The notes under the pieces are model-generated. The model was not told the DNA's origin, ran no database searches, and was given only the letters and a program-made list of their open reading frames with translations. From positions 1-33,671 of the forward strand of contig CAMBSN010000027.1 of assembly GCA_945870505.1 (NCBI GenBank): a DNA stretch of 33,671 nucleotides. Reading direction: 5' to 3'. Both the position numbers and the translations under genes were made by a program. Below, piece after piece: positions 3,834-33,671 of this stretch (positions are counted from its first letter, which is position 1; each line of letters opens with the position of its first letter). The stretch comes from Candidatus Kuenenia stuttgartensis (GTDB taxonomy: Bacteria > Planctomycetota > Planctomycetia > Pirellulales > UBA1268).

Positions 3834-5816
3834 ATGTCCGCCGCCGCCAATCGCACCGCACTCGCCACGGCGCCGATCTACCGCGGGCCGCTGCCGCGCG
3901 TGACCACGGTCGAGCGGCTGCCGGTCACCGTCTACGACCAGCCGGCCGACGCCAGCCGCGCGGTGGCCAGGGAAATCGCCGACCTCGTACGCGAGCGGGC
4001 CGCTACGGGTAAGAAGACGGTGCTCGGCCTCGCCACGGGCAGCACCCCCGTCGGCGTTTACGACGAACTGATCCGCCTGCATCGCGAGGAGGGGGTCTCC
4101 TTCAAGACCGTCGTGACCTTTAACCTCGACGAATACTGGCCGATCGAGCCCGACGCCCTGCAGAGCTACCACCGGTTCATGCGGGAGCACCTCTTCGACC
4201 ACATCGACATCCCGGCCGATGCGATGAACATCCCGGACGGCACCCTCTCCCGCGACCAGATCTCCGCCGCCTGCATGGCTTACGAGGAGAAGATCCGCGA
4301 GGCAGGCGGCATCGACCTGCAAGTGCTCGGCATCGGTCGGACGGGCCACATCGGCTTCAACGAACCGGGCAGCACGGTCGAGAGCCGCACCCGTTTGATC
4401 ACGCTCGACAGCGTCACCCGCGGCGATGCCGCCAGCGACTTCTTCGGCGAGTGGAACGTGCCCCGGCAGGCGATCACGATGGGCGTGGGGACGATCCTCG
4501 GCGCCCGCCGCGTCGTCCTGCTCGGATTCGGTGAGCACAAAGCGCCGATCGTCCGCAAGGCGGTGGAGGAGCCGCCGTGCAGCCACGTCTCCGCGAGCGC
4601 CCTGCAAGGGCACCCCGACGCCAGGTTCGTCCTCGACCGGTCCGCCGCGGCCCGGCTTTCGAGGTTTGAGGCGCCGTGGGTGGTGGGGCCGCTGGAGTCG
4701 ATGGGGCTCGAATGGACGCCGCAGCTCACGAAAAAGGCGGTGATCTGGCTCTCGCTGCAACTCGGCAAGCCGATCCTCAAGCTCACCGACGAGGACTACA
4801 ACGAGCACGGCCTCCAGGACCTGCTCTCCTGCCGCGGCCGGGCCTACGACACCAACATCGAGGTCTTCAAGGCGATGCAGGGCACGATCACCGGATGGCC
4901 GGGGGGCAAGGCGGGGGGCCGCGGGCCTCACGGCGGCTCCGACGCTTTTCCGAAGCGGGTGGTCGTCTTCAGCCCGCACCCCGACGACGACGTGATCAGC
5001 ATGGGCGGCACGTTCATCCGGCTCTGCGAGCAGGGGCACGACGTGCACGTCGCCTATCAGACGAGCGGTAACATCGCCGTCTGGGACGAGTCAGCCGACC
5101 GGCACGTCGATTTCGTCGAGGAGTTTTGCAAGGCCTTCGGCGTCGGTGCGCCGATTTCGAAGGGAGGCGCGAGTGGCATCGCCGACCAGATCCGGCAGTT
5201 CCTCAAGACGAAGTCGGCGGGGGCCGTGGACATTCCGGAACTGCAGGCGGTGAAGGGGCTAATCCGGCGGACCGAGGCCCGAGCCGGCGCGAAGTATTCC
5301 GGTGTGAAGCCCGACAACATCCACTTCCTCGACCTGCCCTTCTATGAGACCGGTCGCGTCCGCAAGAAGCCGATCGGCCCCGAGGACATCGCGATCACGG
5401 TCAAACTTCTCGAGCAGGTGCAGCCGCACCAGGTCTATGCAGCAGGCGACCTCTCCGATCCCCATGGCACGCATCGCGTCTGCCTGGCTGTGATCCTCGC
5501 GGCGCTGGCGGAGGTGAAGGGGCGGCCGTGGGCCAAGGACTGCCAACTCTGGCTCTATCGCGGTGCCTGGCAGGAGTGGGGGCCGCACGAGATCGAGATG
5601 GCCGTGCCGCTCTCGCCCGACGAGGTCGAGCGGAAGCGGATGGCGATCTTCAAGCATGAGAGCCAGAAGGATCGGGCGCTGTTTCCCGGAGCGACCGACG
5701 AGCGGGAGTTCTGGCAGCGGGCGGAGGATCGCAACCGTGATACCGCCAGGCTTTACGACAAACTCGGGCTTCCGGAGTACGAGGCCATCGAGGGCTTCGT
5801 GCGGCACACGTTCTGA
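3834..5816 (+). CDS. Fusion of glucosamine-6-phosphate deaminase-like and PIG-L deacetylase domains
   Basis: A 660-residue two-domain cytoplasmic protein. Residues about 30-345 are NagB-like: GLATGSTPVGVYDEL (phosphate loop), TFNLDEY with Asp99 (E. coli Asp72 equivalent), and GIGRTGHIGFNEPGS with His172 and Glu177. The position of catalytic Asp141 of E. coli NagB is Thr170. Residues about 375-655 are PIG-L/LmbE-like, with the zinc-binding motif as SPHPDDDVIS and a later DPHGTHRVC. Such fusions, about 660 residues long, occur in Bacteroidetes and planctomycetes (from memory). Together the domains suggest deacetylation then deamination of an N-acetylamino sugar. AGGAG lies 8 bases before the ATG. 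A Gly-rich linker (about 355-372) joins the domains. Confidence 0.92.
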   Translation: MSAAANRTALATAPIYRGPLPRVTTVERLPVTVYDQPADASRAVAREIADLVRERAATGKKTVLGLATGSTPVGVYDELIRLHREEGVSFKTVVTFNLDEYWPIEPDALQSYHRFMREHLFDHIDIPADAMNIPDGTLSRDQISAACMAYEEKIREAGGIDLQVLGIGRTGHIGFNEPGSTVESRTRLITLDSVTRGDAASDFFGEWNVPRQAITMGVGTILGARRVVLLGFGEHKAPIVRKAVEEPPCSHVSASALQGHPDARFVLDRSAAARLSRFEAPWVVGPLESMGLEWTPQLTKKAVIWLSLQLGKPILKLTDEDYNEHGLQDLLSCRGRAYDTNIEVFKAMQGTITGWPGGKAGGRGPHGGSDAFPKRVVVFSPHPDDDVISMGGTFIRLCEQGHDVHVAYQTSGNIAVWDESADRHVDFVEEFCKAFGVGAPISKGGASGIADQIRQFLKTKSAGAVDIPELQAVKGLIRRTEARAGAKYSGVKPDNIHFLDLPFYETGRVRKKPIGPEDIAITVKLLEQVQPHQVYAAGDLSDPHGTHRVCLAVILAALAEVKGRPWAKDCQLWLYRGAWQEWGPHEIEMAVPLSPDEVERKRMAIFKHESQKDRALFPGATDEREFWQRAEDRNRDTARLYDKLGLPEYEAIEGFVRHTF

Positions 5817-5834
5817 CACTCAAGCGCAGGCACC

Positions 5835-6866
5835 ATGACCAAGAAGTACAACGTCGGGATCATCGGCTACGGCTGGGCGGCCACCGCCCATATCGCGGCG
5901 ATTAACGCCACCACGCAGGGGCGCGTCGCCGGCGTTTGGTCGTCGCGACCGCTCGATTCGAGCGAGCTGTCGGCCAAACACGGCGGCACGATCAAGGCCT
6001 ATCGCGAACTCGACGCCATGCTCGCCGACCCCGACATTCACGTAGTGGACGTCACGAGCTATCCCAGCCAGCATCGCGACCAGGCGGTGGCGGCGGCAAA
6101 AGCGAAGAAGCACGTGATCCTCGAGAAGCCGATGGCCAACACACCGGATGAGGTTCGCGACATCGTGGCGGCTGCCGAGGCCAACGGTGTGAAGGGCTGC
6201 GTCTGCTTTGAGTGCCGCTACTCCAACCAGTTTCAGGTCACGAAGGCCCTGCTCGACGAGGGTCTGCTTGGGAAGCTGCACTACGGCGAGGTCGACTACT
6301 ACCACGGCATCGGCCCGTGGTACGGGCAGTATCGCTGGAACACCGGCAAGAAGGACGGCGGGAGCGCCCTGCTCACGGCCGGCTGCCACGCGCTCGACGC
6401 GCTGCTCATGCTCATGGGCAACGATGTGGCGAGCGTGACGAGCCTGAGCACGAAGTCGGCGAGCGACATCTTCCAGCCATACGAATACGACACGTCGAGC
6501 GTGACGATCCTCCACTTCAAGAACGGCGCGATTGGCAAGACGGCAGCCATCGTTGACTGCCTACAGCCCTACTACTTCCACACGCACCTGGTGGGCAGCG
6601 AGGGGAGCCTGCTCGACAACAAGTTTCACTCCATGAAGCTCAAGGCTGACAAGGGGCATTGGAGTGAATTGTCGATGAAGATGCTCGACTCGGGCGACGT
6701 CAGCGACCACCCCTACCAGGCGCAGTTCCAGGCCTTTTTCGATGCCCTCGACCGGGGCGAAGACATGCCGCTGACGAGCTTCAAGGAGGCGAAGAAGACC
6801 TTCGACGTGATCTTCGCGGCCGACACGAGCGCGGCTCACGGCGGCACGCCGGTGCGGCTGGGGTGA
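5835..6866 (+). CDS. Gfo/Idh/MocA family oxidoreductase (cytoplasmic)
   Basis: A 343-residue NAD(P)-dependent dehydrogenase without a signal peptide. The N-terminal Rossmann motif is NVGIIGYGWAATAH, the EKP motif is VILEKPMANTPDEVRD, and the C-terminal alpha/beta substrate domain follows from about residue 125, with VDYYHGIGPWYGQYRW and GGSALLTAGCHALDALL (the His of this stretch is often catalytic in the family). It begins 18 bp after the NagB/PIG-L gene, so it belongs to the same transcript. It differs from the first oxidoreductase in lacking the Tat signal, which suggests one outside and one inside step. Substrate unknown. Confidence 0.92.
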   Translation: MTKKYNVGIIGYGWAATAHIAAINATTQGRVAGVWSSRPLDSSELSAKHGGTIKAYRELDAMLADPDIHVVDVTSYPSQHRDQAVAAAKAKKHVILEKPMANTPDEVRDIVAAAEANGVKGCVCFECRYSNQFQVTKALLDEGLLGKLHYGEVDYYHGIGPWYGQYRWNTGKKDGGSALLTAGCHALDALLMLMGNDVASVTSLSTKSASDIFQPYEYDTSSVTILHFKNGAIGKTAAIVDCLQPYYFHTHLVGSEGSLLDNKFHSMKLKADKGHWSELSMKMLDSGDVSDHPYQAQFQAFFDALDRGEDMPLTSFKEAKKTFDVIFAADTSAAHGGTPVRLG

Positions 6867-7161: not shown

Positions 7162-9114
7162 ATGACTCAGTGTCGTTTGTCGGCGCTTGTAGCCTGTCTT
7201 GTCACCATGGCTGCGTCCGTGGCCGTCGCCCAGCCGGCCGTCGTTCCCGCCGGGTGGACGGCGCTTTTTAATGGCCGCGACCTCGCCGGCTGGCGGGGAA
7301 GGCCTCACTTCGATCCTGCGAAGGAGGCCGAAGGCACGCCCGAGGAGCGGACGAAGCGGCAGGCTGAGTGGGACGCCGACATGCGGCAGCACTGGACGGT
7401 GGAAAACGGCGTGATCGTCAGCGACGGCCACGGCGTGTTTCTCACCACCGACCGCGACTTCGGCGACTTTGAACTGGACCTCGAGTGGATGCTGCCGGCA
7501 GCGTGCGCCGACAGCGGGATTTATCTCCGCGGCAATCCGCAGGTGCAGATCTGGGACCCAGCCTGCGAAAGGGATTTCAAGCACGGCTGCGAGAAGGGGT
7601 CGGGCGGCCTCTGGAACAACCCTGCCGACGCGCCAGGCAGGTGGCCGCTCGTGAAGGCTGACAAGCCGATCGGCGAGTGGAACACCACGCGGATCACGAT
7701 GAAGGGCGATCGAGTGACAGTGGTGCTCAACGGCCAGGTCGTGGTGAACGACGCGCCGCTTGCCAACTACTTTCAGAAGGGGCAGCCTCTGCCTGCACGG
7801 GGCCCGATCCAGATTCAGACCCATGGGGCGCCGATGCACGTTCGTAACGTGTTCGTCCGCGACCTCGGCACGTTTGACCTCTCGAAAACTGACTGGCGGG
7901 ATCTCGGCGAGGTGGATTTTACGAACGTTAACTGTGCGGCCGACACCTGGACGTGGACGCCCGATCGCGTGAAGTGCACCGGGCAGCCGGTGGGCGTGAT
8001 TCGCACCAAGGAGCCGATCGCCGACTTCGAGATGTCGCTCGAATGGCGGCACCTCTCCGACGGCGGTAACTCAGGGGTGTTTCTCTGGGCGCCGAAGGCG
8101 GCGCTCGATTCGATCAAGCCCGGCCAGCTGCCCCCCGGTGGCATCGAGGTGCAGGTGCTCGACCACGCCTTCACGGCGCAGTACGAGGCATCGAGCGGTA
8201 AGAAGGCCGACTGGTTCACGACCGATGGCGACGTCTTTCCGGTGGGCTCGTCCACGATGAAGCCTTTCCCGCCCACCGCCCCGCGTGGATCGCGGAGTTT
8301 CCCGAAGGAGCGGCACTCGCTGGGCACGCCCGAGTGGAATCACTACTTCATCCGGGCCGTGAAGGGGGAGGTGCGGCTCTGGGTGAACGGCCACGAGGTC
8401 TCAGGGGGCTCCGACTGCAGCCCATCGAGCGGGTATCTTTGCCTCGAGTCGGAAGGGGCCCCGGTGGAGTTTCGCCGCATGAAAATCAGGGAGATCGCCG
8501 CCACGGGTTCGCCCGCGTCAGAGGAGGGCTTCGTGCAGCTGTTCGATGGCACCACGCTCGACGGCTGGCAGGGGGCGGTCGATGGCTACGAGGCCGTGAA
8601 TGGAGAGATCCGCTCGAAGCCGGGCGTGGGCGGCAATCTGCTCACGGCGGGCGAGTACGGCGACTTTGAACTACGGTTCGAGTTCCAGCTCACGCCCAGC
8701 GCCAACAACGGCCTCGCGATCCGCGTACCGCCGCAGGGGGATGCGGCGTTTCAGGGGATCGAACTCCAGATCCTCGATGACGGCCACGAGAAGTACAAAG
8801 ACATCAAGCCCTGGCAGGCGCACGGCTCGATCTACGGCGTCGTGGCTGCCGAGCGCGGCACGTGCCTGAAGCCTGCCGGAGAGTGGAACACCGAGGAGGT
8901 GACGGTGCAGGGCTCACGGATCAAGGTCGTGGTGAACGGCAAGACGATCGTCAACGCCGATACCGCTCCCTTCCGCGATGGTCAGCCCACGCCCGACGGC
9001 CAGGCCCACCCGGGCCTCGCCCGTACGAAGGGGCACCTTGGATTTGCCGGTCATCATGACGAGGTCCACTTCCGCAACATCCGGCTCCGCGATCTTTCGA
9101 ACGTACCGAACTGA
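7162..9114 (+). CDS. Secreted protein with three DUF1080 (3-keto-disaccharide hydrolase) domains
   Basis: 650 residues from ATG 7162. The in-frame ATG-less upstream extension to 6907 runs through repeat DNA, while AAGGA lies 5 bases before 7162 and a Sec signal peptide follows directly (MTQCRLSALVACLV...ASVAVAQ, cut after AVA). Three concanavalin-like DUF1080 units follow: about 30-235 (GWTALFNGRDLAGWRG), 240-430 (LSDGGNSGVFLWAP, GGIEVQVLDH) and 455-648 (FVQLFDGTTLDGWQG, NNGLAIRVPPQG, GIELQILDD). DUF1080 proteins have been linked to cleavage of 3-keto-glycosides. Units 1 and 3 keep the FNG/FDG-x(3)-L-x-GW start; unit 2 has lost it and may be structural or bind substrate. It is probably still in the operon despite the 295-bp gap. 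Confidence 0.9.
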   Translation: MTQCRLSALVACLVTMAASVAVAQPAVVPAGWTALFNGRDLAGWRGRPHFDPAKEAEGTPEERTKRQAEWDADMRQHWTVENGVIVSDGHGVFLTTDRDFGDFELDLEWMLPAACADSGIYLRGNPQVQIWDPACERDFKHGCEKGSGGLWNNPADAPGRWPLVKADKPIGEWNTTRITMKGDRVTVVLNGQVVVNDAPLANYFQKGQPLPARGPIQIQTHGAPMHVRNVFVRDLGTFDLSKTDWRDLGEVDFTNVNCAADTWTWTPDRVKCTGQPVGVIRTKEPIADFEMSLEWRHLSDGGNSGVFLWAPKAALDSIKPGQLPPGGIEVQVLDHAFTAQYEASSGKKADWFTTDGDVFPVGSSTMKPFPPTAPRGSRSFPKERHSLGTPEWNHYFIRAVKGEVRLWVNGHEVSGGSDCSPSSGYLCLESEGAPVEFRRMKIREIAATGSPASEEGFVQLFDGTTLDGWQGAVDGYEAVNGEIRSKPGVGGNLLTAGEYGDFELRFEFQLTPSANNGLAIRVPPQGDAAFQGIELQILDDGHEKYKDIKPWQAHGSIYGVVAAERGTCLKPAGEWNTEEVTVQGSRIKVVVNGKTIVNADTAPFRDGQPTPDGQAHPGLARTKGHLGFAGHHDEVHFRNIRLRDLSNVPN

Positions 9115-27478: not shown

Positions 27479-28903
27479 TCAGTGGGCAGGCATGGCGATC
27501 CATCGCGGCACGGTCGCCTTCGGAGCCCAGCCGTTGGCAGTCCGGATTTCGTCCTCGGTGAGCTTCGGATCGCGCAGGTACACGTAGTAGGCGTCCGCCC
27601 GCTCGAACAAATCCCCTGTGCCGTCGTTCCGGTCGCTGACCACCATCGTCGCCGAGATCCTGACGTGGAGATATCCGCGGAGGAGTTCGTCGTACCGCCC
27701 CTCGGGGACGCTGAACGTGACGGGAATGAACACGCGCTCCGCCCCGACCTCACGAATCTCCTTCATCGTCTCTGGGCTCGAGGTCGTCGGCAGGCTCTCC
27801 CAACGTCCGTCCCGCTGCACCGCCATCCCGGTCGCCGGACCGAGCACATACAGGTTTCTGTCGGAACGCACGTTGTCGAGAAAGAGCGCCGCGGTGAAGC
27901 TGCCATCGACGTTGGCCACCACGTCGTCGATGTCGGCCCGGAGGTCCTGCAGGGCCATCTCCTCGGCCACCCGCCGCTGCTGCCGGATCGTATTCACGGC
28001 CTGCCGCTGGCGACTCGCCACGAACCAGTCGATGCCTCCCAGGACTGCCGCGGCCACGCTGAGTCCGACGGCGAATGGCACGAGCATCCGCCACCAGTCC
28101 ATTGTCACCGGCGTCGCCACCTGCGGCACGAGATCGGCGGGTGCCGGTTCGAATGCAGCGGCCGCACTGTCTGCACGTGTGGCGAGACCGATCGCCTGGC
28201 GATCGAATGCTGGCAGTTCGGGCGCGTCGACGAGGGCTCCTTGTTCCATCCATAGGCGACGGTCGGCGATCATGGCAACCGCCGGATCGTGCGTCACCAC
28301 GACGATGGCCGTCGAGCCCGCCGCCTTGATCTCGGCGAGGATCCGGACAATTTCCTGCTCCGCGTAGGCATCGAGGTCGTTGGTCGGTTCGTCGGCAAGG
28401 ATCACGCGGGGCTTGGTCGCCAGCGTGCGGGCGAGCGCCACCCGTCGCTGCTGGCCGCCCGAGAGTTCGGCGGGATACGCATCCCACCGTTCCGCGAGGC
28501 CAACCCGCGCCAGCATCTCCTGCGCCTCGGCGAAGGCTGATTCGTGGTCCCGGCCCGCGATGAGCTGCGGCAGCATCACGTTGTCGATCGTCCGCAGCCC
28601 GGGCAACAAGACACTCTCTTGGAGAAGAAAGCCGATCTGCTCCGCGCGGGCCGCCTGAATCTCGACGGCTCCCAGACTCGTCCACGGGCGTCCTGAAAAA
28701 AGAACGGTGCCGCTCGTCGGCGCGCAGAGCCCGCCCAGCAATGCCAGCAGCGTCGACTTGCCCGATCCCGACCGCCCACAGATCGCGACGCACTCGCCGG
28801 GAGCGACCTGCATCGACACTCCGGCGACGGCGGAAATCGTGCCGCGATGGGTCGCGTAGGCGAGGGCCACGTCCCGCGTCTCGAGCACCGGCTGGCCGCT
28901 CAT
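27479..28903 (-). CDS. ABC transporter ATPase with membrane-anchored C-terminal extension
   Basis: 474 residues from the ATG at 28903, which overlaps the permease stop (ATGA). Residues 1-225 are a MacB/LolD-type ATPase: Walker A GRSGSGKST (43-51), Q-loop LLQESVLLPG, signature LSGGQQ (147-152), Walker B VILADEPTNDLD (167-178) and H-loop VVVTHD. Unlike ordinary ATPases of this type, a linker (226-268) leads to a transmembrane helix (about 272-292, MLVPFAVGLSVAAAVLGGI) and a roughly 180-residue domain I do not recognise (LYVLGPATGMAVQRDGRWESLP, VFIPVTFSVPEGRYDELL, YYVYLRDPKLTEDEIRTANGW). With the N-terminus inside, that domain should be outside. It is the last gene of a four-gene coupled operon. 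Confidence 0.88.
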   Translation of the reverse strand: MSGQPVLETRDVALAYATHRGTISAVAGVSMQVAPGECVAICGRSGSGKSTLLALLGGLCAPTSGTVLFSGRPWTSLGAVEIQAARAEQIGFLLQESVLLPGLRTIDNVMLPQLIAGRDHESAFAEAQEMLARVGLAERWDAYPAELSGGQQRRVALARTLATKPRVILADEPTNDLDAYAEQEIVRILAEIKAAGSTAIVVVTHDPAVAMIADRRLWMEQGALVDAPELPAFDRQAIGLATRADSAAAAFEPAPADLVPQVATPVTMDWWRMLVPFAVGLSVAAAVLGGIDWFVASRQRQAVNTIRQQRRVAEEMALQDLRADIDDVVANVDGSFTAALFLDNVRSDRNLYVLGPATGMAVQRDGRWESLPTTSSPETMKEIREVGAERVFIPVTFSVPEGRYDELLRGYLHVRISATMVVSDRNDGTGDLFERADAYYVYLRDPKLTEDEIRTANGWAPKATVPRWIAMPAH

Positions 28904-30132
28904 GAGCCCTCGTCGCGGACGAGCGCCCACGCCTCCCGGCCGGCGGCGAGTGCCGCTGCCGCCATGGCCGCCACGACGGCGGCCGCGGTCACCAGGAGCA
29001 GGCTGACGACCCCGTACCACAGGCATTCCGTCATGTCAGGCGCGACGAACGGAATCTCGCGGCGCACGAGCACGAATCCCACCGTGCGCATGAACGCCGC
29101 CAGCACCGTGGCCGCGACCACCACTCCCACGAGCCCACCGGCGAGAGCCGCCACGGCCGCCTCGACCGCCACCACCATCACGATGTCGCGGCGTCGCAGG
29201 CCGAGCGACAGCATCAGGCCAAGCTCACGCCGCCGCTCGGCGAGCATGCCGGTGTAGGCCACGCCCTCGAGGACGGCCGGCGCCAACAGGCACACGACGA
29301 GGAGCGCGAGCGAACTCTGCGCGAGCGCAGCGACCGACTGCCGGACGTCGATCTGGCTGCCGTTGCCCGTCGAGACGCCCACATCCGACATCGTCGCCAT
29401 CGCGAATCGCAGTTCGTCGGGACCACGTCCTGCAGCCAGCCGTATGAGCACCCCGCTCGGTGCGGTGATGGCCCCGCGCGTAAGTGACGCACCGGCGGCA
29501 TCCACGCAACCGGCGTCAGCCAGCCTGTCCGCCGTGTCGCCCGTCATGAACAGAGATCGCTCGAACGGCCCCGAGCCGGTGAGTCCGAGCCGGGCGTGTA
29601 CCACGAGCTCGACCCCCTGCATCGTGAACCGTTCGCCGAGCCGCTCCGGCCTCCGTCCGCCGACGATCACGTCACCGCCCATGAACGGCCTGTCGAGCGA
29701 CTCCACGATCCACGGCCGCACAGTGAAGTCGGTCGCCGCGTCAAAAATAACCACGTCGACGGGGAGATGCCCACTCGCGTCGGCGAGTTGCAGCGTCCGC
29801 TGGCCAGCAGCTCGCTCCACCACCGGCAGGCCGGCGATCCGGTCGATGGTGTCTGTCTCGAGCGTCGCCCGCGACGGCTCGACAGTCAGAAGGACCGGCG
29901 TGAGGTTGGCGACGACTCCCGCCGGCAGGACGAGGGCATCGGCGCCGAGCCGCAACAGGCTCTGATCGAGTGAGCGGCGGATGGACGTCTGGAACACGAG
30001 CGACGCGAACGTCGCCGCCCCCGCGACTGCGATCCCGGCGGCGAGGAGCCCGAGCCGCCAGGGCCGACGGACGGTGTCGGCGACCGCCATCCGTGCCAGC
30101 GTGAACCGGTAACCACGGGTGATCGTCGCCAT
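28900..30132 (-). CDS. ABC transporter permease, FtsX/MacB-like
   Basis: About 410 residues from the ATG at 30132, whose A is the last base of the propeller stop (TGATG); a GTG three bases earlier is an alternative. The fold is FtsX-like: one N-terminal membrane helix (LGLLAAGIAVAGAATFASLVF, about 28-48), a large extracytoplasmic domain (about 50-270) and three C-terminal helices (LALLVVCLLAPAVLEGVAYT; VVAVEAAVAALAGGLVGVVVA; YGVVSLLLVTAAAVVAAMAAA), with the ERRRELGLMLSLGLRRRDI coupling loop typical of MacB/LolCE-type permeases. It pairs with the adjacent ATPase. Such transporters usually move lipoproteins or peptides, or drive periplasmic partners, rather than carry small solutes through a pore. 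Confidence 0.9.
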   Translation of the reverse strand: MATITRGYRFTLARMAVADTVRRPWRLGLLAAGIAVAGAATFASLVFQTSIRRSLDQSLLRLGADALVLPAGVVANLTPVLLTVEPSRATLETDTIDRIAGLPVVERAAGQRTLQLADASGHLPVDVVIFDAATDFTVRPWIVESLDRPFMGGDVIVGGRRPERLGERFTMQGVELVVHARLGLTGSGPFERSLFMTGDTADRLADAGCVDAAGASLTRGAITAPSGVLIRLAAGRGPDELRFAMATMSDVGVSTGNGSQIDVRQSVAALAQSSLALLVVCLLAPAVLEGVAYTGMLAERRRELGLMLSLGLRRRDIVMVVAVEAAVAALAGGLVGVVVAATVLAAFMRTVGFVLVRREIPFVAPDMTECLWYGVVSLLLVTAAAVVAAMAAAALAAGREAWALVRDEGS

Positions 30133-31745
30133 CACACGGTGCAGCTGCGGCTGAACTTCAGCTGCTCGACCGTAGAGGGGACGATCACGCAGTCGTGATG
30201 GCCGCCGAAGTTCGGCATGTAGCCCACCTGCTCGAGCGTGTCCTGCCGAAACACGAAGGCCCCGGCCTCCATCCGCTGGAACCCGGAAAAGATCACGATC
30301 GCATACTTTCCGTCGTAGGTCGTGCAGGATGTCTGGGCATCGACGCCGATGTTGCGGAACTTCTTGATGATCTTCCAGGTCTTCGTGTCGACGACCACCA
30401 GATCAGACTTCATCGGCTTCGGCCGCAGGATGGTGACGAAGCATTTCGTGCCGTCGATGGAATAGTTGATGTGGAACGGAGATGGATATTCCCCCTTCCA
30501 TTCGGCATCCTTGATGAACGTGAACCGCTTCCACTGCCGCGGATCGGCGGCCGACGTGTCGAAGACCGCGATGTTGTTTGCCCGCAGATTGTTCATCATG
30601 CAGAGGTGGTTGCCGACGGGATTGAAGCCCGTTTCGTGGATCGGGTTGCCGACGGCGGGCAGATCCACCACCCAGGTATCGGGGCTGCTCGACACCTTCT
30701 CGAGCTTCCAGTTGTCTTGCATTCCCTCGTTGGCCTGCAGGAAGCAGAGGGGCTCGAAAGTCGTGCGGTCGACGACGAACCCGCCGCCGCACATCCGCAG
30801 CCCCATCAGCGAATAGCGGCCGCGCGGGTCGTGGAGGCAGAAGTCGAGGCCGGTGAGCCCGCGCGGATCGTTGCCCGGCACCTGGCCCCGCTCGACGCGG
30901 AGCTCGGCCATCGGTGCCATCTCGAAGTTGATCTTATTGCCGGTCGTGCCCTGCAGGTCGTAGCGGCCCAGGTCGAGACTCGGAGTCAGGCGGGTGAGGA
31001 TGATCCGCCCGCCCTTGGTCCACGTCTCGGCGAGGCCGGCGGCATTCGGCACCCAGTCGGCGCGGAAGGCGTTCAACACCTTCGTCTTCTCCTCCCCCCG
31101 GGCCCGGGTGAAGAATGCGACCACGTCCTTCTGGCCGTCGGCGCACGCGAAGCCGGTGCCATCCGGGAAGGCCACGGTGTGCACACCGAGGCCGATGCCA
31201 GTCGTCTCGGCGACGTCCTCGAGCAGCTCCATCTGGCCCGTCTTGCCGTCGTAGCCCACGCGATAGATGTGGTTGCCCTGACCCGCGGTGCCCAGCATCC
31301 CATTCTCGCGAATCCGCGTGTTGAGGCCGTACATCAGGACGTTGTCGCCCCCCTGCGTCGAGTTGATGAACTCGAACCCCTTGTACGGATCACCGGAGTC
31401 GGCGGGAAACGCAGCGACGTGGTGGGAGATCGGGCAGCTGTCGCCGTAGTTCCAATACGAGATCCAGGCGAGCGTCTTCTGCGTGGCGAGATCGACGACG
31501 TGCGTGCCGCCCCCAAGCTTCTGGGGCGTGAGCAGGATGTAGCGACTCAGCGATTCCTGGAGGCGTTCGGCCCGCGCGTCCTCCGCGAGGATGCCATCGG
31601 CCGGCAGGCTTGTCGCACCCGCCTCGGCCGTCCGTTCAGTCGTGAACGCCCGGTAGAGGCCCAGGGTGGTCGCACCAGCCAAACCAGCCGTGCCGTATTG
31701 AAAAAGCCGCCGCCGTCCCAACTTGGCAGTGAATGCACGGTTCAT
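30132..31745 (-). CDS. Tat-exported NosZ/thiocyanate-dehydrogenase-like copper propeller
   Basis: 537 residues with a Tat signal (RRRLFQYGTAGLAGATTLGL, 11-30). The rest reads as a seven-bladed propeller resembling the N-terminal domain of nitrous-oxide reductase. Histidines occur in the order of the seven CuZ ligands: the His108-His109 pair after GDSCPIS, His189 (GLGVHT), His305 (FCLHDPRGRY), His370 (NPIHETGFNPVGN), His425 (PSPFHINYSIDGTK) and His516-His517 in GGHHDCVIV, like the EPHDC end of NosZ. The protein stops there, so the CuA cupredoxin domain is absent, as in thiocyanate dehydrogenase. Expected: a periplasmic multicopper redox enzyme of unknown substrate. Its ATG overlaps the redoxin stop (ATGA). 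Confidence 0.75.
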   Translation of the reverse strand: MNRAFTAKLGRRRLFQYGTAGLAGATTLGLYRAFTTERTAEAGATSLPADGILAEDARAERLQESLSRYILLTPQKLGGGTHVVDLATQKTLAWISYWNYGDSCPISHHVAAFPADSGDPYKGFEFINSTQGGDNVLMYGLNTRIRENGMLGTAGQGNHIYRVGYDGKTGQMELLEDVAETTGIGLGVHTVAFPDGTGFACADGQKDVVAFFTRARGEEKTKVLNAFRADWVPNAAGLAETWTKGGRIILTRLTPSLDLGRYDLQGTTGNKINFEMAPMAELRVERGQVPGNDPRGLTGLDFCLHDPRGRYSLMGLRMCGGGFVVDRTTFEPLCFLQANEGMQDNWKLEKVSSSPDTWVVDLPAVGNPIHETGFNPVGNHLCMMNNLRANNIAVFDTSAADPRQWKRFTFIKDAEWKGEYPSPFHINYSIDGTKCFVTILRPKPMKSDLVVVDTKTWKIIKKFRNIGVDAQTSCTTYDGKYAIVIFSGFQRMEAGAFVFRQDTLEQVGYMPNFGGHHDCVIVPSTVEQLKFSRSCTV

Positions 31746-32443
31746 GGACTCGTTTCCGGAGAAGGATGCGACGCCGGGCTCACCGGGTCACCATACACTA
31801 ATGGACAACCTGCCGTCGCAGCGCCTGGAACGTCGTTAAGCAGTTCGTCGGGCAGCGTCGGCTCGACGCCGATGCGCTCTGCCAGGTCGCGAAAGCCCTG
31901 GCGCGAGACGCCCGACCACACCGTCTCGACCACGCCATCGGGCTCCACGAGCGCGAAGCAGCCCGCCTTGCGCACGCCCCATTCCTGCGCGAGCCGGCTG
32001 TCCAGCTGGGCGATGTATGGGATCGCCAGGCCGGTTGCCGCGACAAAGGCGTCGGCCTCCGCCACCGTGCCCTCGATGACCGCGGTGCAGGCGGCATGCG
32101 GCTGCAGGTGCGGCGCGAGGGCCGAAACCATTTCGGCGAATCCTTTGCTGCAGTCGCAGTCGGCCTTGAGAAAGATCACCATTCCGCAACGGCCGTCCGG
32201 CAGGAGTTCGTTGGCGAGCGCACGCGGTAGCCGCCGCACGACGTCGGCATTGAGGGCCGCCGTATCGCCCGCCGGCGCGGCGTGGATGCTTTGCCGCTTG
32301 GGCGCGGAATGCTCCATTATGGCTGGCCCCGGGCTGCCGGAGGATGCGGTTCGCACCGCGAGAACGACGGCCACGACCACGAGCGACGCAGCGCCTCCAG
32401 CTGCCACGACCAGGGGTGATTTCATGGCCCGTCGATCCGCCAT
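31742..32443 (-). CDS. Membrane-anchored thioredoxin-like protein with Cys-x-Cys motif
   Basis: About 233 residues from ATG 32443; a GTG at 32482 and an ATG at 32425 are alternatives, and none has a clear ribosome site. An N-terminal membrane anchor (LVVAAGGAASLVVVAVVLAV, about 11-30) precedes an extracytoplasmic thioredoxin/TlpA-like domain (about 85-205): MVIFLKADCDCSKGF with Cys96 and Cys98, then LAQEWGVRKAGCFALVEPDGVVETVWSG, the usual strand and loop of redoxins. The motif is CxC rather than CxxC. Its stop overlaps the next start (ATGA), so it is made together with the copper propeller. Likely role: reducing cysteines or handing copper to the enzyme, as SCO-type proteins do (inference). 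Confidence 0.8.
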   Translation of the reverse strand: MADRRAMKSPLVVAAGGAASLVVVAVVLAVRTASSGSPGPAIMEHSAPKRQSIHAAPAGDTAALNADVVRRLPRALANELLPDGRCGMVIFLKADCDCSKGFAEMVSALAPHLQPHAACTAVIEGTVAEADAFVAATGLAIPYIAQLDSRLAQEWGVRKAGCFALVEPDGVVETVWSGVSRQGFRDLAERIGVEPTLPDELLNDVPGAATAGCPLVYGDPVSPASHPSPETSP

Positions 32444-32568
32444 CACGAACGACCCAGGTGAACCGCAGGCACTCGATACCACCTGCTGGATAAAAGTAGA
32501 CTAAGCGTCAGCAGTCCAGTCTGCAATCAAGTCCTTTGGGAGCGAATCCTTCGGGGTCGATATCGACG

Positions 32569-33671
32569 ATGACACTTCGACGCATCATGGTCCTCGCGCT
32601 CTGCTTGGCGGCCGTGACCGTCGTCCCCACACCGACGCGGGCGGCCGAACCGGTGGAGGGCGATCGCCCTCCGCTCGTCGCGGTGGATTCGCTCGTTGTC
32701 GACGTGCTCTCCGACGACGTCAGCGATCCCTACGTTTCCAAGACGTCGTTCGCGACGTCGGAACTGGCCAACGTCGTCGCCGCCGGCGCCACGGTCGTCT
32801 CGGGCGAGACGCTGTGCATCGCCAACCTCGGCTACGGCCTGCGGCTCCGCACCCGGGTGGCCGACACCGAGCACGTGATGCTGTTCGATGTGGGCACGGA
32901 AGGGCACGCGTTTCTGCACAACTGCAGGGTGCTGGGGGTCGACCTGGCCGAGGTGGAGGCGATCGCAATCACCCACGGCCACTGGGACCACATGGGCGCT
33001 TTGCCGCAGGCGCTGCCGGTGATCGTCGGCAAACGCGGCCGGGGACGGGTTGCAGTGCACGTGAATCCCGACATGTTCGTCGAGCGTGGCCTCAGGTTGC
33101 CCGACGGCCAGATCGTTCCAGCCGAGAAAGTGATCTCCGCGGAGCGGATGGAGGCGGCGGGGGCGACGGTCGTCAGTTCGCGAGAGGCCCGCTCGGTGCT
33201 CGACGGGCATTTCCATTACAGCGGCGAGATTCCCCGTGTGACAGCGTTCGAGAAGGGGCGCACGGATCATCTCGTCAGGCCGGTGGGGAGAGACTGGCAG
33301 CCCGATCCACTGCTCATGGACGAGCGGATGGTGGTCGTACACGTCAAAGATCTTGGGCTGGTTGTGTTCAGCGCCTGTTCGCACGCGGGAATCGTCAACG
33401 TCTGCACCGAGGTGCGGCGGCTCTTTCCGGGCGTTCCGATTCATGCCGTCCTGGGCGGGCTTCATCTCGGCGGCGTGATGGAGCGAATCATCCCCGAGAC
33501 GGTCGCCGGTCTGCGGCCGTTCGACGTCGCGTTTCTGATTCCCGGCCACTGCACCGGCTGGCGGGCGGTCCATGCGCTGGCCACCGCCTACGGCGATCGC
33601 GTCAGCCAGTCTGCGGTTGGCACGTCGTACCGATTCTCTGCCCTCGCCGCCCCGACGCCGAACGACCGTCC
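32569..33671 (+). CDS. Exported MBL-fold metallohydrolase (COG1237-like), cut by the window edge
   Basis: The frame is open from ATG 32569 to the end of the window (367 codons, no stop). A Sec signal peptide starts it (MTLRRIMVLALCLAAVTVV, ending near TRAAEP). The metallo-beta-lactamase motif is ITHGHWDHMGAL (HxHxDH), and later segments VVFSACSHAGIVNV, VLGGLHLGG and IPGHCTGW match the branch annotated as 7,8-dihydropterin-6-yl-methyl-4-(beta-D-ribofuranosyl)aminobenzene-5'-phosphate synthase, but export makes that reaction unlikely here. It probably hydrolyses a periplasmic substrate with two metals. It is divergent from the copper-propeller operon with 125 bp between. The long minus-strand frame over it is a shadow. 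The start could also be the ATG at 32587. Confidence 0.85.
   Translation, partial: MTLRRIMVLALCLAAVTVVPTPTRAAEPVEGDRPPLVAVDSLVVDVLSDDVSDPYVSKTSFATSELANVVAAGATVVSGETLCIANLGYGLRLRTRVADTEHVMLFDVGTEGHAFLHNCRVLGVDLAEVEAIAITHGHWDHMGALPQALPVIVGKRGRGRVAVHVNPDMFVERGLRLPDGQIVPAEKVISAERMEAAGATVVSSREARSVLDGHFHYSGEIPRVTAFEKGRTDHLVRPVGRDWQPDPLLMDERMVVVHVKDLGLVVFSACSHAGIVNVCTEVRRLFPGVPIHAVLGGLHLGGVMERIIPETVAGLRPFDVAFLIPGHCTGWRAVHALATAYGDRVSQSAVGTSYRFSALAAPTPNDR

Follow-up and report, generated by a model that had tools for sequence, protein, structure and literature searches.

In Thioalkalivibrio, the gene for thiocyanate dehydrogenase (TcDH) is followed by permease and ATPase genes of the ATP-binding cassette (ABC) class (PMC5328954, PMC5744179). 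These ABC genes are induced together with TcDH on thiocyanate and their function is not established; copper acquisition and its insertion into TcDH are said to remain undetermined (PMC5744179). The permease tree published for this genus already includes the GenBank proteins KRO62015, KRP32447 and KRP34113. In Thiohalobacter and Guyparkeria, a thioredoxin-like gene is located upstream of tcdh (PMC6504805). Here, a four-gene operon is described on the minus strand of a contig of 33,671 nucleotides (CAMBSN010000027.1, hereafter the window), belonging to a 3.35-Mb assembly, 87% complete, deposited as Candidatus Kuenenia stuttgartensis (GCA_945870505.1). It encodes a redoxin, a seven-bladed propeller related to TcDH, an FtsX-type permease and an ABC ATPase with a C-terminal tail domain. 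TcDH beside FtsX-type ABC genes is already known from Thioalkalivibrio, and the original prediction, made from the letters of this DNA, was right in pointing to TcDH loci with ABC and thioredoxin-like genes (PMC5328954, PMC5744179, PMC6504805). A clade of TcDH-like enzymes with glutamine at an active-site position, the tail domain and the host range appear to be new.

Compared from the papers alone, the Thioalkalivibrio cluster (Berben 2017) shares with the window the order of tcdh, permease and ATPase, and a permease in which one helix is N-terminal and three are C-terminal. It possesses two ABC pairs, with copCD, tatA, fccAB and a two-component system nearby, whereas the window has a single ABC pair, a tail fused to the ATPase and a redoxin upstream. 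The cluster of Thiohalobacter and Guyparkeria (Tsallagov 2019) is alike in the thioredoxin-like gene directly upstream of tcdh, but this redoxin lacks the Cys motif and Cus-like genes stand in place of the ABC genes. NosDFY and NosL, the maturation factors for the CuZ centre of NosZ, itself a copper propeller (PMC7660919), are similar by analogy, as an ABC machine and a copper-binding helper for a periplasmic copper propeller; the permease of the window is, however, FtsX-type and the tail has no match to the NosD family. Type VII ABC systems do their work in the periplasm, typically without moving a substrate through the membrane, and YbbAP-TesA has an enzyme as its periplasmic partner (PMC12646458). 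YbbAP-TesA, LolCDE, MacB and FtsEX share with the window a LolD/MacB-like ATPase, an FtsX permease and a periplasmic partner encoded alongside, but the ATPase of the window carries its own anchored tail and its partner is a copper-type propeller.

The four overlapping open reading frames (ORFs) were confirmed in the order redoxin, propeller, permease and ATPase, and the three predicted stop/start overlaps were found base for base (Table 1). Judged by its sequence, the propeller belongs to the TcDH family. In phmmer searches against PDB sequences it matched pmTcDH at E 1.6e-131 and tpTcDH (5F75) at 2e-118, and none of the 14 hits at E up to 10 was NosZ. Its AlphaFold model, built from 34 sequences, had a mean pLDDT of 84.7 and was compared by Foldseek with pmTcDH 8Z75 (TM-score to target 0.96, 1.4 Å). 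All of the first 20 rows were TcDH, with 40–45% identity, the TM-scores to the tpTcDH and pmTcDH structures were 0.93–0.96, and no NosZ occurred among the best 50 of the 1662 matches. Homology to TcDH covers the whole propeller, by sequence as well as by fold comparison. The NosZ-like reading of the original prediction was rejected on these matches, and the histidines that it had placed in the order of the NosZ CuZ ligands align instead with TcDH active-site residues. That they come together in the channel, as predicted, is supported by the fold and by this alignment of ligands with TcDH. It was correct that the protein stops after the propeller, without a CuA domain, as is usual for TcDH. The Tat signal that it reported was also recognized, by eye, as a Tat-like GRRRLF near the N-terminus, which differs from the exact Thioalkalivibrio motif (PMC5328954). 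Weak partial matches of the propeller to cytochrome d1 and hydrazine synthase beta (Pfam/NCBIfam) were read as a shared repeat fold.

The active site was compared with the 13 TcDH residues that Tsallagov et al. 2019 list (PMC6504805). The propeller keeps 12 of them, and has Gln471 at the place of tpTcDH His482 and pmTcDH His447. The same substitution has been engineered in crystal structures, according to their titles: 6SJI is tpTcDH H482Q, and 8YU5 and 8YU6 are pmTcDH H447Q. The window protein is thus like tpTcDH (5F75, 6SJI) and pmTcDH (8Q9X, 8YU5) in fold, extent of homology, Tat-type signal and all but one active-site residue, but since this defining residue is changed it is not named a thiocyanate dehydrogenase. 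Related loci, 53 in number, were obtained in a single scan of a genome collection that was based on peptides of the query and hence biased to close relatives. Among the 48 loci covering the site, the residue was Gln in 47 and Glu in one (L025). Gln was also found in a plasmid copy from Methylocella and in 14 of 15 further stretches used for genome typing, the remaining one (G077) not being resolved. On the contrary, His is present in tpTcDH, pmTcDH and all five gammaproteobacterial relatives, which were retrieved from 369 gammaproteobacterial genomes, including the centre genome, with up to four candidates per genome scored. The other 12 positions were invariant across the 47 to 52 rows covering each, except in L054, whose row is broken, contains unknown bases and does not align at the Lys103 column, where it shows Arg.

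In a midpoint-rooted tree of 42 rows, the Gln/Glu sequences formed a clade beside tpTcDH and pmTcDH, with support of 100/96 without the Tautonia locus (L051) and 87/56 with it. No natural Gln-type or planctomycete TcDH was found in the accessible text of the open literature searched, including PMC8906906 and PMC6382920. The clade shows that a change engineered in two crystal structures is fixed in nature, so that substrate and centre may differ from those of TcDH, and that the enzyme family extends far beyond the thiocyanate-oxidising sulfur bacteria. With respect to the Glu variant, L025 (7875–9467) is a Methylococcaceae propeller for which no permease or tail was found in about 8 kb on each side.

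The ATPase is of the LolD/MacB type, in the Type VII class, on the basis of its nucleotide-binding domain, whose best matches were MacB, LolD, YbbA and HrtA. The anchor of the original prediction corresponds to an extra hydrophobic helix at about residues 273–295. Residues from about 262 to 474 were modelled as a transmembrane/stalk helix followed by a beta domain (mean pLDDT of the model 87.1), and this tail is predicted to lie in the periplasm, given the usual topology. His413, Met471, Pro472 and His474 were invariant in 29/29 rows, and 34 of 36 tail ORFs terminate in Met-Pro-x-His (MPxH), the other two reaching contig ends. Searches of the tail against PDB profiles gave nothing better than a chance-like E of 1.6, no Pfam family was matched by more than one of 20 members, and only ABC proteins appeared among the 50 matches listed by Foldseek for the whole ATPase. 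Methylocella tundrae encodes the tail as a gene of its own (293 aa) after a plain ATPase in the same operon; the tail is therefore a module. Within the order of genome G063 (53 genomes), it was present in 18/18 genomes with the propeller and absent from 34/35 without it, an agreement in 52/53 genomes (Fisher p 3e-13, uncorrected for kinship). A sample of 294 genomes from the phylum of the window yielded the tail in the window's own genome only, although misses are possible, as up to 10 candidates per genome were scored.

The permease matched FtsX alone (PF02687, 5.4e-10), as predicted, and not NosY. Hydropathy indicated helices at about residues 29–47, 274–292, 317–335 and 375–393, a weaker one at 64–84, and a large domain after the first, in agreement with the Type VII pattern of four transmembrane helices and a large periplasmic domain after the first one. 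Homologues of NosD and NosY were not detected in the operon: the permease matches FtsX, and the tail of the window no Pfam family. The same gene arrangement is present in other genomes. In five of the 53 loci the DNA runs out at or within the propeller (L023, L053, L056–L058), and the permease adjoins the propeller in 42 of the 48 with downstream DNA, some of them cut by contig ends and one (L050) with the order reversed; the possibility that such propellers never neighbour transporter genes was in this way not borne out. At the permease/ATPase junction, a candidate start occurs at −4 (19) or −1 (13) in 32 of the 38 rows with all three genes, L002 and L010 being treated as one contig. The propeller/permease overlap was seen again only in the nearest relatives; outside them, most candidate permease starts follow the propeller at a distance of a few to some tens of bases. 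Beyond the operon genes, no neighbour family of at least four loci crosses phyla, except an antisense ORF, and the other clusters of that size are confined to one lineage (from crude gene calls and clustering).

The redoxin has a single hydrophobic helix (residues 12–30) and the predicted CxC motif, C96-x-C98. His54, Cys96-x-Cys98, Trp176 and the C-terminal Gly212-Cys213 were invariant in 14 aligned rows. The AhpC/TSA Pfam match of the window protein was below the cut-off (E 0.024), and all 14 rows matched at E<=0.1 (best 3.3e-9). By profile, it was detected in 17/53 loci; in those of planctomycetes and Myxococcales it lies upstream of the propeller, and in four from Verrucomicrobia downstream of the ATPase. 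The five His-type gammaproteobacterial loci all have a redoxin just upstream of tcdh, without CxC.

Taken together, these data point, tentatively and at slightly less than even confidence, to a copper oxidoreductase with the TcDH fold and an altered centre, exported by Tat to the periplasm and served by a dedicated Type VII ABC maturation machine. From them we infer enzyme activity, substrate and copper transfer as follows. The propeller would be exported via Tat to the periplasm, where the substrate of its altered multicopper centre may be thiocyanate or a small pseudohalide or sulfur compound related to it, with a c-type cytochrome as electron acceptor. Permease and tailed ATPase would form a Type VII (mechanotransmission) complex which transports nothing across the membrane and acts on the periplasmic propeller. 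The tail could bind copper via His413, Met471 and His474, and load or repair the copper centre as NosDFY does for the CuZ of NosZ, while the CxC redoxin might keep copper or thiols reduced or take up released sulfur. Copper loading seems the most economical reading because the invariant His and the C-terminal MPxH are placed on the machine's own outer domain. This maturation model is supported by the TcDH sequence and fold matches, the active-site comparison, the tree, the adjacency of the permease, the co-occurrence of tail and TcDH, the invariant tail residues, the separate tail gene of Methylocella tundrae, the class of the nucleotide-binding domain, the YbbAP-TesA and NosDFY/NosL precedents and the co-induction in Thioalkalivibrio. 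The copper-oxidoreductase assembly system originally proposed is retained as a possible role of the operon. The conserved fused tail with its invariant His and MPxH offers a concrete site for testing the function of tcdh-adjacent ABC genes.

Several observations weigh against this model. The invariant MPxH might serve for docking instead of binding copper, and in one genome, G772, part of a tail occurs but no TcDH. Across 39 rows of the permease, no column reaches 95% for His, Met or Cys, and the redoxin is absent by profile from all Melainabacteria/Obscuribacterales loci. The six loci without an adjacent permease are four from Methylococcaceae (one of them, L038, with only 2.2 kb of downstream DNA), that of Tautonia and L055; the machine is therefore not needed there or is located elsewhere. 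Furthermore, permease and tail are absent by profile from all five His-type gammaproteobacterial loci, so the fold can mature without them.

A more far-reaching proposal, which we regard as possible but doubtful, is a copper-enzyme family sister to TcDH, with a different multicopper centre (His to Gln) and a different substrate, widespread in non-sulfur-oxidisers, whose cofactor would be installed by a Type VII ABC machine via the new Met-Pro-x-His tail, this assembly system being convergent on NosDFY on an FtsX/MacB scaffold. To a comparable, rather low degree, the propeller may be an ordinary thiocyanate dehydrogenase that converts SCN- to cyanate and sulfur and tolerates Gln, the ABC genes having the tasks guessed at in Thioalkalivibrio, to supply copper or to handle thiocyanate/sulfur. 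The 40–45% identity to characterised TcDHs over the whole propeller, the 12/13 active-site residues and the Thioalkalivibrio synteny argue for it; against it, the changed residue is a published active-site residue with Gln in 47/48 loci and Glu in 1/48, and the metabolic setting differs. Cyanase and SoxY were both undetected in the genome of the window (87% complete). Cyanase was detected in 0/4 genomes of the window genus, and in 4/38 propeller genomes outside the five His-type ones against 3/5 of the latter, a weak contrast, since cyanase is said to be missing from Thioalkalivibrio too (PMC6504805). SoxY was present in 3/37 (G077 left out) against 5/5. Without the untyped G076 and G077 the values were 3/36 for cyanase and 3/36 for SoxY, in a sample where one genome (G061) has Glu, many genomes come from one order, several assemblies are incomplete and kinship is uncorrected. 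This pattern argues against a lithotrophic oxidation of sulfur of the kind seen in known TcDH hosts, but does not count against TcDH chemistry itself.

It is improbable that, as in YbbAP-TesA, the propeller sits on top of the Type VII ABC complex and receives from it a substrate drawn out of the membrane: the ABC class is the same, the enzyme is encoded in the same operon and the precedent exists (PMC12646458), but the copper-ligand-like residues of the tail would be left unexplained and TcDH is known to act on a small soluble anion. Import of copper into the cytoplasm by the ABC genes, with loading before Tat export, has been proposed for Thioalkalivibrio (PMC5328954, PMC5744179); here it is equally unlikely, given that transport across the membrane is not typical of Type VII systems (PMC12646458) and that the tail is predicted to be periplasmic. 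Finally, a stand-alone NosZ-like N2O reductase has practically no chance, a seven-bladed copper propeller beside an ABC gene being outweighed by the lack of NosZ among the 14 PDB sequence hits and the best 50 of 1662 Foldseek matches, the TcDH active-site residues and the absence of a CuA domain.

Members of the Gln type come from several phyla, and in most of their genomes neither SoxY nor cyanase was detected. The label of a planctomycete system is too narrow, as the sequence titles also name Verrucomicrobia, Melainabacteria/Obscuribacterales, Myxococcales and Alphaproteobacteria. The three GenBank proteins of the Thioalkalivibrio permease tree may, we presume, be verrucomicrobial. Two Methylocella records carry the propeller on plasmids, a phage search yielded none, and an order-level search around one His-type genome (3 genomes) gave no new TcDH genome. 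Three loci titled Kuenenia or Akkermansia (L006, L008, L018) have propellers that group with planctomycete or subdivision 6 Verrucomicrobia genes, and are possibly mislabelled metagenome-assembled genomes.

Table 1. Features of the four-gene operon in the window.
Feature	Position	Strand	Remarks
Redoxin, membrane-anchored, AhpC/TSA-like	32443-31742	-	233 aa
Redoxin Cys-Asp-Cys (CxC), C96-x-C98	32150-32158	-	both Cys invariant in 14/14 rows
ATGA overlap, redoxin/propeller	31742-31745	-	sequence
Seven-bladed propeller, TcDH family, Gln type	31745-30132	-	537 aa
Gln471 codon, at the place of tpTcDH His482/pmTcDH His447	30333-30335	-	alignment, fold match
TGATG overlap, propeller/permease	30130-30134	-	sequence
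FtsX/MacB-type permease	30132-28900	-	410 aa counted from ATG
ATGA overlap, permease/ATPase	28900-28903	-	sequence; candidate start at -4 or -1 in 32/38 rows
LolD/MacB/YbbA-like ABC ATPase with C-terminal anchored domain	28903-27479	-	474 aa
Tail: transmembrane/stalk helix and beta domain	27482-28120	-	invariant His413, Met471, Pro472, His474; no Pfam/PDB sequence match
C-terminal Met-Pro-x-His-COOH	27482-27493	-	34/34 tail ORFs not cut by contig end (36 examined)

A divergent gene of the metallo-beta-lactamase fold (window 32536–33669) lies about 90 bp upstream of the operon; neither it nor the gene flanking the other side was found in the other loci searched.

Some loci showed unusual structures. 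At L055 (5631–6446), the propeller gene ends after about 200 residues, about a third, and is directly followed by the end of the tail domain with MPSH and a stop; this would fit a remnant of the operon left by an internal deletion, or an assembly error. In Singulisphaera acidiphila (L049), the TcDH-like gene is in two pieces (5530–6351 and 7989–9047) about 1.6 kb apart, as if interrupted, with permease and ATPase after it. The TcDH-like gene of Methylotetracoccus oryzae (L079, 8487–8489; the gene of L035) has one in-frame TGA. A second short TcDH-like piece is located downstream of the intact gene in L074 (10251–10601); in Guyparkeria, a short TcDH fragment has been reported upstream (PMC6504805). 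Next to two alphaproteobacterial Gln-type operons stands a gene with a weak match to J-domain proteins, which precedes the propeller in L083 (7725–8456) and the permease in L050 (2001–2645).

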